A stretch of DNA of 64,000 bases, from positions 1 through 64,000 of the forward strand of contig CAMWIM010000005.1 of NCBI GenBank assembly GCA_947174335.1, given 5' to 3'. Numbering within the stretch: position 1 is the first letter of the stretch; every line of letters begins with the position of its first letter. The position numbers and the translations under genes are program-made. Of this stretch, positions 47,159 through 51,732 are shown piece by piece. The notes under the pieces were generated by a model, which was not told the DNA's origin, did not search any database, and worked only from the letters and a program-made list of their open reading frames with translations. The stretch is from an uncultured Porphyromonadaceae bacterium (lineage in GTDB: Bacteria; Bacteroidota; Bacteroidia; Bacteroidales; Muribaculaceae).

Positions 47159-48487
47159 ATGACATTTCCAATCACATCACGCATCACACTGACCGCAATA
47201 TCAGTATTTATCTCATTATCGGGTTTTGCAAAAGACATTCGTTCAGAAATGGTCGCTAACCCTGATAAATGTGGTGGTGTCTATTACGCCTACCCTATCG
47301 CATCAGACTCAATCGTCAAAACGACCGTCGCTCCCAAAGGATATAAACCGTTTTATATCAGCCACTACGGACGTCACGGCAGCCGTTATCTGATAAGCGA
47401 CAACGACTATAAAAATTTGCTTGACAAAATGCAGGCTGCCGATAAAGCCGGAGCCTTAACGCCTTTTGGCAAAGAGGTTACTCAACGTCTTGAACGAGTA
47501 TGGGACGAGGCTCGCGGACGTGGAGGCGAGTTATCACCACTTGGCGCACGCCAACACCATGCCATTGCTTCACGAATGTTTGAGAACTATCCCGAAGTAT
47601 TTGTTGATTCTTCTGATATCACTGCGGTTTCGACACAGGTTATGAGATGCGCCCACTCGATGTTTGCATTTGTCGAAGCCCTGAAAGAGAAAAATCCGTC
47701 ATTAAATATTCCCCGTGAATCGGGACAACGCCACATGGAGTATCTTTGTTACTGGACTCCTGAATCGAGCGATTTTAACAGCAACAAAGGAACATGGCGT
47801 CCTGATTATGTCAACTTCAAAGCGAACCATACCGATGGCAAACGGTTAGTTGACGCCCTGTTTGCCGACAAAAACTATGTTAGCGAACATATCGTGCCAG
47901 ATGAATTGATATGGGAATTTTATTGGGTCACGGTCGGTCAGCAAAATATCGAGAACAACGAAACGTTTACCGATGTATTGACACCCGACGAACTCTACAA
48001 TTTATGGCAGGTTTTCAATCTACAGTTCTATATGAGAAACGCGGCATACAGCCGTTCAAAAGGAGTCAATATCGACAATGCAAAGAATTTACTCAACCAC
48101 ATTGTTGACAATGCTGACAAATATATTTCATCAGGTAAAACCGGAGCGACGCTTCGATTTGGACACGACGGAAATATCACACCGCTGACTGCGTTGATGC
48201 AACTCGATAACTGTGTGGGAGTCACATCTGACCCCGAATGTGTCAAGGAAGTGTGGAACGACTTTTTTGTATCGCCTATGGCATCAAACATTCAGCTTAT
48301 ATTTTTCCGCAACGAAAAAAAAACCGATGATATTATAGTCAAGATATTACATAACGAAAACGAGACATCTGTTCCGGTTCCGACTACCATGGCACCGTTC
48401 TACAAATGGAGTGATTTGCGTTCCTACTTCAAGACAATGACATCGCGTCCGTTTGCCGAGACAATTAATGCACGCAATATTGACTAA
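47159..48487 (+). CDS. Exported histidine-type phosphatase (phytase/MINPP-like clade)
   Basis: 442 residues; signal peptide (~1-24). Catalytic RHGxR motif in HYGRHGSRY, and a second catalytic site G-H-D in RFGHDGNITPL. These mark clade 2 histidine acid phosphatases, which include MINPP and phytases; the HD rather than HAE dyad is more like HAP phosphatases. It is probably periplasmic or surface and releases phosphate from organic esters. The substrate is not certain. Confidence 0.88.
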   Translation: MTFPITSRITLTAISVFISLSGFAKDIRSEMVANPDKCGGVYYAYPIASDSIVKTTVAPKGYKPFYISHYGRHGSRYLISDNDYKNLLDKMQAADKAGALTPFGKEVTQRLERVWDEARGRGGELSPLGARQHHAIASRMFENYPEVFVDSSDITAVSTQVMRCAHSMFAFVEALKEKNPSLNIPRESGQRHMEYLCYWTPESSDFNSNKGTWRPDYVNFKANHTDGKRLVDALFADKNYVSEHIVPDELIWEFYWVTVGQQNIENNETFTDVLTPDELYNLWQVFNLQFYMRNAAYSRSKGVNIDNAKNLLNHIVDNADKYISSGKTGATLRFGHDGNITPLTALMQLDNCVGVTSDPECVKEVWNDFFVSPMASNIQLIFFRNEKKTDDIIVKILHNENETSVPVPTTMAPFYKWSDLRSYFKTMTSRPFAETINARNID

Positions 48488-48504: not shown

Positions 48505-50610
48505 ATGATTAGATTTACTATTATTTCAGTATTAACTATTCTGGCTTCAACATTCACTGTGAAAGCCCAAAACCTGTCACTCGAAGAAAAGAATCAGATT
48601 AAAGACCGGTTACTTGAAGAACTGTCTCAGGCAAAAACACCTCGGGACAGCATCAAGATTCTGTATAATATTTTTGATATAACCAACCGTGTTCATGCCC
48701 GTGAAATAGGTATGCAGCTGTTTGATATCGCCGGTAGAATAGGCGATACTCATATACAAAACGACATCATTCATCAAACGAGTGCAATTTCAGTGCGTCA
48801 GGACAGTATTCAGAGTGTTTTGATGGAAAAAGCCCTCTCACTTCCCGACAATCAAGAGCGACAAGCCACAATTGCCTACATCAAAATGAATCAGATTCGC
48901 AACAAATCTCGCAATGTCGATGATGAAACGCGATTAAAACAGTTAAAACAGTTCATTTCAAAACTCTCTAAAGACAAGCCTACCAATATTTACGAACATA
49001 TCGACCTGTTATATGGTATCTGTTGTATGCTCGGAGAGTCAGCCAATCCCGATTTTACAATTCATTACTATAACGAGCTTCTGCAACTCGTTGATAAACT
49101 TCCCGAGTCAGACTACTTTATCAGAAATACGGTCTATACACGAGGAAGTACTCTTTTCACTGAGGTCGGAGAACATGAACGTGCACTCGAACTCGACAAA
49201 AAGTTACTCGAAATTGTTGATAATCTCGAAAAACGCTATCATAGTGAAGGACGCATCTACCGAAACTATGATGCTATCAGATATGCCCGATATATGTGCA
49301 TTCTCTATAATTATCCGGTAATGAAACTTCACGAAGTTGAAGAAGCATATGATAAAGTGAAATTTCATGCCGAACGAGACTCTGATGCGCTCATCGCTTT
49401 CAACGAATACCAGACGCCGACAATCAGCTACCTGATGGCTAACAAACGATACAGAGAAGTAATCCCTATTTTGGTCAAACAGTTACCTATAGCTTATAAT
49501 CAAGGTAATCAGCGTCGCTACTACCGCTACCTGCTTGAAGCTTCTGACTCTGTACAAAATCTTAAAGTTTACAATCAAACAGCCAAGGAATATATTAAAT
49601 ATCTCGAAGACTACATCAAACAACGTGACTTTGAAAAATATCGTGAGTTACAAATCATGTATGATGTCTATGACCTGCGCTCAACAAATGACGACCTTGA
49701 AATCAAGTCTCAAAAAGCCTCGGAATCACGTCAGCGCACACTCATAATCACTACCGTTATCGTACTGCTTATTCTGACCGTATTCCTTATTATTCTGTTC
49801 AAACTCTATCGAAAGGCTCGTAAATTCTCTATAAATATTATCAACGCTAACGATGCATTGATTGAAGAGAGTTCAAACCTGATGGCTATTAGAGATGAAC
49901 TAGAGCGATCTCGCGACGAAGCCCGCGAAGCGAACCTACGAACTCGAGACATTATAAGTAATATCAGCAATGAGGTCAAGATACCGTTGCAGGCGATTTC
50001 TGAATACAGCCGCCTGATTGTAGATTGTGTTGACATTCAAAAACAACCATTCCTGTCTAAATATGCCGACCTCGTAGAGTCAAACACCGACATTTTGAAC
50101 CGCGTAATCACCGACGTTGTCAGCCTGTCAGAGCTCGACAGCAACCGTATGTCAATCAGCTACTTTGGTGCAAATGTTAATGAAATGTGTGAAATCGCGG
50201 TCAGCACGGTGGCTCATCTTGTCAATCCCGATGTTGAGCTGACATTTATACCCGGAGACTCATCTTTGACCGTATCAACCGATCCGCGACGTGTTGAACA
50301 AATTTTAATCAGTCTTTTATCAAACGCGGCCAAGTTTACCGAAAAAGGATCAATCAAACTCAGCTACATGATAGAAGCAACAAGCAACCGCCTTATATTC
50401 GAAATAAAAGACTCAGGTATCGGTATTCCTGCCGACAAAGCCGAGGTAATCTTCGACCGATTTGTCAAACTCGACCGCAACACCCAAGGTCCCGGTCTCG
50501 GATTGACTATTGACCGAATGATTGCACGACTTCTCGGTGGTGACATCCGATTAGATACAACCTATACCCGCGGTGCATGCTTCCGTTTCTTCATCCCGAT
50601 CACCCGTTGA
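48505..50610 (+). CDS. TPR-containing sensor kinase lacking the phospho-acceptor histidine
   Basis: 701 residues: signal peptide (1-21); a periplasmic helical/TPR-like region (~25-410); one membrane segment (~414-435); a coiled coil; a HisKA-like dimerization domain; and an HATPase domain (N-box LISLLSNAAKFT, G1 DSGIGIP, G2 GPGLGL). The H-box reads NISNEVKIPLQAI, so the usual SHE is SNE: N489 (codon AAT 49969-49971) replaces the phospho-acceptor His. There is no receiver domain or DNA-binding domain. It may be a pseudokinase that works by dimerization or by acting on a partner. It starts 17 bases after the phosphatase gene. Confidence 0.88.
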   Translation: MIRFTIISVLTILASTFTVKAQNLSLEEKNQIKDRLLEELSQAKTPRDSIKILYNIFDITNRVHAREIGMQLFDIAGRIGDTHIQNDIIHQTSAISVRQDSIQSVLMEKALSLPDNQERQATIAYIKMNQIRNKSRNVDDETRLKQLKQFISKLSKDKPTNIYEHIDLLYGICCMLGESANPDFTIHYYNELLQLVDKLPESDYFIRNTVYTRGSTLFTEVGEHERALELDKKLLEIVDNLEKRYHSEGRIYRNYDAIRYARYMCILYNYPVMKLHEVEEAYDKVKFHAERDSDALIAFNEYQTPTISYLMANKRYREVIPILVKQLPIAYNQGNQRRYYRYLLEASDSVQNLKVYNQTAKEYIKYLEDYIKQRDFEKYRELQIMYDVYDLRSTNDDLEIKSQKASESRQRTLIITTVIVLLILTVFLIILFKLYRKARKFSINIINANDALIEESSNLMAIRDELERSRDEAREANLRTRDIISNISNEVKIPLQAISEYSRLIVDCVDIQKQPFLSKYADLVESNTDILNRVITDVVSLSELDSNRMSISYFGANVNEMCEIAVSTVAHLVNPDVELTFIPGDSSLTVSTDPRRVEQILISLLSNAAKFTEKGSIKLSYMIEATSNRLIFEIKDSGIGIPADKAEVIFDRFVKLDRNTQGPGLGLTIDRMIARLLGGDIRLDTTYTRGACFRFFIPITR

Positions 50611-50622
50611 TATCGTTGATTT

Positions 50623-51732
50623 ATGATACTGCAACACCTTACAATTGATAATTTTAAAAACATCGCTCACGCCGATATTGACTTTTCACCCAAAATGAAT
50701 TGTCTGCTCGGCAATAACGGCATGGGAAAAAGCAACCTGCTTGACGCGTTGTTTTACCTCAGCTTTTGTAAGAGTTTCAGTGGCTTGCCCGACACTCGAT
50801 TAGTGCGTCGCGACGAGCAATTCATGATGATTAAAGCAATTTATGACCGACGAGGTGTAACCGAAGAAATCCAAACCGGATTTACGCCCGGGCGTCGTAA
50901 ATCGTTTAAACGCAAGGGGAAAGAATACAAACGTCTCAGCGAGCACATCGGTGCATTCCCGCTGGTAATGGTCGCGCCCCAAGACATCGACCTTGTAAAC
51001 GGGCTTTCAGAAGGACGTCGCGGATTCATCGACCGTATAATTTCACAATCTGACCACAACTATCTCGCCGCACTGATTCATTTCAACGGATTACTTGAGC
51101 AACGCAACAAAATGTTGCGCGACAAAGTGAGCGACACTACTCTGTTTGAGGCATTGGAATTCCCGATGACTGCCGACATAAAATATATCAGCGAAGCACG
51201 CCGTCGATGGATCGAGCTTTTCACCCCCGTATTCAATCGCTATTACGCAGCCATTTCGGGTGAAGGAGCCGAAGAAGTCGGGGTCGGATATCTTACGACC
51301 TTTAATCCCGGCGATGCTGACCCATATGAACAATTTGAAACCGCACGTCGCCACGACATGATGTCGGGTCACACGAGTGTCGGTATTCATCGCGACGATT
51401 TGTCAATGACCATCGATACAATGCCGCTCAGACGCACAGCCTCTCAAGGTCAGACAAAAACTTTTGTCATTGCTATGAGATTGGCTCAGTATGATTTCCT
51501 CAGAGAATCAACCGGACTCAAGCCGTTGCTGTTGCTCGACGATATTTTTGACAAGCTCGATTCCGGTCGTGTTGAACGAATAGTAAGCCTGACCGCCGGT
51601 GACAATTTCGGTCAGATATTTATCACCGACACCAACCGCGACCACCTCGATTCAATCATGTCTCACTCACCCACACGCTACTCGCTTTGGCATGTCGATA
51701 ACGGAAACTTCACCCTGTCATCATCCAACTAA
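50623..51732 (+). CDS. recF: DNA repair protein RecF
   Basis: 369 residues. Walker A GNNGMGKSN, QDIDLVNGLSEGRRGFID, the signature-like ASQGQTKTFVIAMRLAQ and Walker B LLLLDDIFDKLD are as in RecF. It loads RecA at single-strand gaps. The stop overlaps the start of the DUF721 gene by one base, a common recF-dciA pairing in this phylum. Confidence 0.95.
   Translation: MILQHLTIDNFKNIAHADIDFSPKMNCLLGNNGMGKSNLLDALFYLSFCKSFSGLPDTRLVRRDEQFMMIKAIYDRRGVTEEIQTGFTPGRRKSFKRKGKEYKRLSEHIGAFPLVMVAPQDIDLVNGLSEGRRGFIDRIISQSDHNYLAALIHFNGLLEQRNKMLRDKVSDTTLFEALEFPMTADIKYISEARRRWIELFTPVFNRYYAAISGEGAEEVGVGYLTTFNPGDADPYEQFETARRHDMMSGHTSVGIHRDDLSMTIDTMPLRRTASQGQTKTFVIAMRLAQYDFLRESTGLKPLLLLDDIFDKLDSGRVERIVSLTAGDNFGQIFITDTNRDHLDSIMSHSPTRYSLWHVDNGNFTLSSSN

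Follow-up and report, generated by a model that had tools for sequence, protein, structure and literature searches.

The locus described here raises the question of what a sensor kinase can do once the histidine that normally accepts the phosphate has been lost. In the window, i.e., the whole stretch of 64,000 nucleotides that was analyzed, one gene encodes a protein with the layout of a membrane-bound sensor histidine kinase, whose acceptor position is occupied by Asn489 (Table 1). The H-box around this residue reads ISNISNEVKIPLQAI, just as a first-pass annotation of this DNA had described it, and the reading frame contains no internal stop. The HATPase_c domain was clearly recognized by Pfam (residues 592–700, E = 1.8e-21) and its N-, G1- and G2-boxes are intact, as had also been claimed. 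The score of the HisKA domain (E = 0.0011; 19.4 bits) was below the cut-off of 26.9, and a further search (E = 2.1e-4) likewise left it under the threshold. The acceptor histidine of an active HisKA-type kinase is missing in this protein, which presumably does not autophosphorylate. As H571, the sole histidine of the cytoplasmic part (residues 435–701), is located past the helical domain, there is no nearby histidine that could substitute at Asn489. In agreement with the first-pass annotation, Pfam revealed neither a receiver nor a DNA-binding domain in the sensor, and it also revealed no PAS domain.

The same annotation had called the protein a TPR sensor. In Pfam the TPR_12 match reached only 12.8 bits and thus failed the cut-off of 30.1. 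The AlphaFold model (mean pLDDT 79.7, pTM 0.54, 13 sequences), however, exhibits an all-helical, solenoid-like N-terminal part with pLDDT values mostly between 80 and 95 up to about residue 370, which is consistent with TPR-like repeats but no proof of them. The model further contains a long helix crossing the membrane and a core of the histidine kinase type; the topology given in Table 1 is a predicted one. The best Foldseek matches of the model were histidine kinases, for example, WalK/YycG, HK853 and RetS, and the structure of DivL (4q20) matches the profile of the sensor family at 6.2e-30.

Table 1. Coordinates of the sensor gene, its parts and its neighbors in the window.
Feature	Position	Strand	Basis
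Histidine-phosphatase-like gene, upstream neighbor, ends 17 bases before the sensor gene	47159..48487	+	
His-less sensor kinase (pseudo-histidine kinase) gene, 701 aa	48505..50610	+	ORF, Pfam, orthologues
Probable signal peptide, residues 1–22, ends ...KAQ	48505..48570	+	Inferred from sequence
Predicted periplasmic all-helical TPR-like sensor domain, ~residues 23–410	48571..49734	+	AlphaFold helices; Pfam TPR sub-threshold only
Predicted single transmembrane helix, ~residues 411–434	49735..49806	+	Hydrophobic stretch and continuous AlphaFold helix; inferred
Degenerate HisKA (DHp) domain	49945..50142	+	Pfam, under cut-off
AAT codon, Asn489 at the position of the phospho-acceptor His	49969..49971	+	Sequence
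Ile493, at the site that corresponds to the phosphatase Thr in HExxT motifs	49981..49983	+	Family alignment
HATPase_c (CA) domain	50278..50604	+	Pfam
N-box Asn607, same in 130/130 relatives	50323..50325	+	Family alignment
G1 box DSGIG (636–640); D636, G638 and G640 same in 52/52 His-less relatives	50410..50424	+	
G2 box GLGL (664–667); G664 and G666 same in 130/130	50494..50505	+	
recF, downstream neighbor, 12 bases past the sensor gene	50623..51732	+	

As AAT differs from CAT by only one base, an assembly or sequencing error at the histidine codon would be a simple explanation. A full-length family member is present in six of the eight genomes of the window's genus (g1). Three of them (G002, G004 and G005) contain same-locus orthologues with 69–77% identity to the window sensor. 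Together with the window genome itself (G000) these represent four same-locus species; recF is the next gene in all four, all four reading frames are open and none of them encodes the histidine. The three independent assemblies, along with many other genera that likewise lack it, refute a sequencing error for the same-locus clade, and the probability of this explanation is practically nil. A strain-specific mutation, named in the first-pass annotation as a possible objection, does not apply either. Its suggestion to check the conservation of the asparagine yielded a divided answer: the histidine is missing throughout the same-locus clade, yet Asn itself is not conserved, as the acceptor positions of G002, G004 and G005 are occupied by N, S and N. 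The family members of G001 and G007 share only 32–34% identity with the window sensor, are found at another locus and do contain the histidine; they may not be strict orthologues. No member of the family was found in G003 and G006.

The sensor family was surveyed in 397 genomes of the window's taxonomic family, identified as Muribaculaceae from relatives bearing a name, of which 191 matched the sensor at 1e-40 and 206 did not. From 120 fetched regions an alignment of 130 full-length rows, including the window protein, was obtained, with eight partial or other ORFs being dropped. The acceptor was H in 78 rows and a residue other than histidine in 52, a share which may be inflated, as the fetched regions are a part of the listed places and the query itself is His-less. 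These 52 rows are spread over 10 of 16 genera and 49 of 119 genomes and contain Y (15), N (13), S (7), R (7), G (2), K (2) and, once each, L, D, C, Q, E and T. In a published survey, 722 of 76,471 HisKA domains (0.9%) are without the histidine (PMC12632262). Even with the sampling allowed for, the frequency found here is exceptional.

In trees built with the H-box columns removed, FastTree required at least 14 changes between H and non-H (vs. 40.8 with shuffled labels), at least 11 of them on well-supported (starred) branches, and a quick IQ-TREE tree likewise 14, 10 of them on starred branches; the number of changes as such gives no direction. As distant relatives elsewhere in the order, outside this family, exhibit both histidine and threonine in 20 of 20 cases, reading SHExRTP, the loss of the histidine appears to be the derived state. 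This argues for the histidine having been lost from the sensor family about ten or more separate times. A control kinase of the same genome (C9) retained the histidine and the threonine at position +4 at all 30 loci of its orthologues (best 30 of the listed matches). Judged by the alignment, the recurrent feature is the loss of histidine and not the gain of asparagine, with one clade standing apart in which all 15 rows contain tyrosine. Of 24 kinase loci from the genus that were scanned for a motif, 18 contained it, every one of them with histidine; four of the six loci without it (L024, L025, L029 and L031) belong to a second His-less family.

While the acceptor position varies, the residues of the ATP site do not. 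Among the 52 His-less rows, N607, D636, G638, G640, G664, G666 and also P494 are present without exception, and E490 is kept in 49. The dN/dS values of the CA domain of the window gene were 0.066, 0.077 and 0.122 against G002, G004 and G005, respectively, and those of the ATP domain in close Tyr and Arg pairs ranged from 0 to 0.045; dN/dS was read only where dS was unsaturated, and many other dS values were saturated. Purifying selection is strong in the helical as well as the ATP domains of close His-less pairs. The mean entropy of the CA domain was even lower in His-less (1.42) than in His-bearing rows (1.64). The invariant residues and the low dN/dS values indicate that selection preserves the ATP site, whereas the acceptor, outside the Tyr clade, varies freely; the sensor presumably binds ATP. 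With a histidine kinase fold, a lost catalytic residue and retention under selection, the 701-amino acid sensor is a pseudo-histidine kinase.

These data also bear on the idea that the gene is decaying, with constraint having been relaxed after the sensor became obsolete. Compatible with decay are the 206 genomes without a match at 1e-40 and stops in a few relatives: two family members (G305:C114:1496-3532 and G308:C98:432-2483) contain one in-frame TGA each and are possibly broken genes or MAG errors. The open frames of all four orthologues, the complete conservation of the ATP-site residues, the purifying selection and the lower entropy contradict it, so that decay is largely refuted and appears extremely unlikely. 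The statement of the first-pass annotation that the gene is intact and not a decayed pseudogene holds.

The threonine of the HExxT motif is required for the phosphatase activity of HisKA kinases. It is present at position +4 in 5 of 52 His-less rows vs. 45 of 78 His-bearing rows (Fisher 1.4e-8). A correlated loss of threonine and histidine is nevertheless not significant after correction for kinship, with 3.1 vs. 0.2 independent pairs and a median p of 0.25. The same is true for a loss of the first Asn of the N-box (position 603), which is N in 75 of 78 His-bearing and 32 of 52 His-less rows (2.3 vs. 1.0 independent pairs, not significant). Other irregularities concern individual loci. A family member at L178 (G099) shows the opposite decay, having kept the histidine and lost residues of the G1 box. 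At L118 and L125, additional distant ORFs (22–25% identity) near a family member match the query only up to about residue 545, and perhaps represent sensors without an ATP domain.

In our opinion the sensor is probably an ATP-binding pseudo-histidine kinase which acts by conformation and protein contact in a DivL- or RetS-like manner. An action through another protein had already been considered in the first-pass annotation and is supported here as the most likely reading. The periplasmic domain would set the ATP-bound or free conformation of the sensor, and the helical dimerizing domain, devoid of its histidine, would relay this conformation by contact with another two-component protein. Such a partner might be a second, active kinase that forms a mixed dimer with the sensor, an arrangement suggested by the tandem His-bearing/His-less pairs of relatives (see below). 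Alternatively, a receiver domain might dock on the sensor as in the case of DivL, with a degenerate orphan receiver as the candidate. The overall pattern suggests that His-less relatives signal by a change of shape or by binding of a partner, and not by phosphate transfer.

It is conceivable, yet very unlikely, that the protein is still a kinase which either uses another residue (Tyr, Ser, Arg or Asn) as acceptor or trans-phosphorylates the histidine of a partner. The ATP site is intact, one clade consistently has tyrosine, and the tandem arrays would permit trans-phosphorylation of a His-bearing partner. The 12 different residues found at the acceptor position, which include Gly, Leu and Asn, however, have no acceptor chemistry in common, and this speaks against the alternative acceptor that the first-pass annotation had also proposed. 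In addition, DivL, which has a tyrosine, reportedly exhibits no autokinase activity (PMC4211667).

DivL of Caulobacter crescentus is described in the same source as a pseudo-histidine kinase without kinase or phosphatase activity, which senses DivK~P; it is likewise a HisKA-HATPase protein with a non-His acceptor (Tyr550), and has PAS sensor domains and a weak binding of ATP (57 uM) of its own (PMC4211667). In contrast, the window sensor has a predicted periplasmic helical sensor domain, and its family combines an invariant ATP site with a varying acceptor, belongs to another phylum and has undergone many separate losses. With Asn instead of Tyr and no PAS domain in Pfam, the window sensor is not recognizable as an orthologue of DivL. 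In Pseudomonas, two reports describe RetS and LadS as acting on GacS, i.e., one sensor kinase modulates another (PMC4866733, PMC12148439). The kinase region of RetS is among the top fold matches of the window sensor, but RetS, LadS and GacS are, unlike the latter, hybrid kinases with receivers. We know of no recurrent loss of the histidine in RetS or LadS with GacS. For Corynebacterium glutamicum, a report describes a ChrS pseudokinase which heterodimerizes with its active paralogue HrrS and alters its output; there, a laboratory-evolved frameshift affects the CA domain, whereas the window sensor kept the CA domain and lost the histidine (PMC9491836). Bacteroidales also possess conventional sensor histidine kinases of the TPR-like type, which have a related kinase core, but contain SHExRTP with histidine and threonine, both of which are missing in the window sensor.

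The gene neighborhood yielded no conserved partner. Clustering of 1219 ORFs around the family loci revealed, as recurrent neighbors, only further copies of the sensor gene and housekeeping genes confined to particular clades, and receivers adjoining the sensor were limited to scattered matches with nothing systematic among them. The histidine-phosphatase-like gene upstream of the sensor was rejected as an obligate partner, as it is missing at the corresponding place in G004. Mixed tandem arrays occur at four loci in four other genomes, namely L069 (H, K, E), L079 (H, N, K), L101 (H, G) and L141 (partial H, N). Each of these arrays begins with its His-bearing copy, which is followed by the His-less ones, and at several array junctions the ATG of one copy overlaps, or lies almost directly next to, the stop of the copy before it. 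As all four are located in one part of the tree, they amount to a small number of independent cases. His-bearing copies alone make up three more arrays (L091, L176 and L177). Most His-less copies, including that of the window, are solo. Among the 49 genomes that contain a His-less copy, only 3 also encode a full-length His-bearing one within the fetched regions, plus one genome with a partial copy, so that mixed dimers within the family are not a general rule. In the window genome, which is 93% complete, no His-bearing copy of the family was found.

The kinase-type ATPase domains and receivers of the window genome were listed as well. Three HisKA kinases (C9, C5 and C45) scored above the Pfam cut-off. 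A second His-less membrane sensor with a similar layout (G000:C25:3250-4812; L201 3250-4812, minus strand) exhibits the motif NITSQMQPTL, in which E is also replaced by Q. It belongs to a separate family which is present in 26 of 149 genomes, has the histidine in none of the 26 and shows a degraded G1 box in several members. The genome also contains one orphan single-domain receiver of 136 amino acids (G000:C19:20510-20917; L198:3511-3918, plus strand), which has lost its second acidic residue and exhibits exchanges of T/S to A and of K to R.

This receiver could form a DivL-like pair with the His-less sensor, which would dock it as a pseudo-receiver and signal without phosphotransfer. When 397 genomes were searched with a profile of the receiver, a distinct top group was retrieved in 20 of them, all from the genera g1 (6) and g22 (14). 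Within g1, the occurrence of the receiver matches that of the sensor family in all eight genomes: G000, G001, G002, G004, G005 and G007 have both, G003 and G006 neither. In the four His-less g1 species the second acidic residue of the receiver is K, Q, Q and Q, and the conserved lysine is Arg; the two His-bearing g1 genomes retain the acid as E, but their lysine is changed to Arg as well. Across both genera, the receivers of 3 of 7 His-bearing vs. 0 of 10 His-less genomes have retained an acidic residue, with the sensor of G165 read as S and G137, G180 and G147 left out. This parallel between the loss of the acid and that of the histidine is suggestive and weak, and reflects mostly one event. 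Moreover, the two genes are not adjacent, the receiver is limited to two genera whereas His-less sensors occur in ten, and only 12 of the 14 g22 genomes with the receiver have the sensor family (in G147 as a contig-edge fragment), with G137 and G180 lacking a recognizable match. A pairing with this particular receiver appears rather unlikely. An association of short orphan receivers with the sensor family (21 of 24 vs. 39 of 95 genomes, Fisher 5.5e-5, among the matches listed) was discarded and replaced by the profile search, as its length cut had been picked after viewing the list and kinship was uncorrected.

To our knowledge, most descriptions of pseudo-histidine kinases concern individual cases. 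Pseudo-histidine kinases are a known kind of protein; as far as searched, about ten or more acceptor losses in one family and the mixed arrays are new, and open-licence PMC yielded no report of His-less sensors from Muribaculaceae or Bacteroidales. As a tentative idea, a sensor lineage of Muribaculaceae might have been repeatedly converted from phosphotransfer kinases to ATP-gated conformational sensors, accompanied in some genera by their single-domain receivers, which would result in two-component systems without phosphotransfer. The family offers active and inactive versions for comparison in numerous close species and even inside one array, which makes it testable what the role of a kinase fold is once phosphotransfer is gone and what purpose ATP binding then has. 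The automatic annotation as "histidine kinase" is wrong for a considerable fraction of these sensors from gut bacteria. Two public MAG records (L311 and L318) bear titles that appear to be wrong, too, namely Staphylococcus sp. and Clostridiales bacterium; both carry family members of the Muribaculaceae type.
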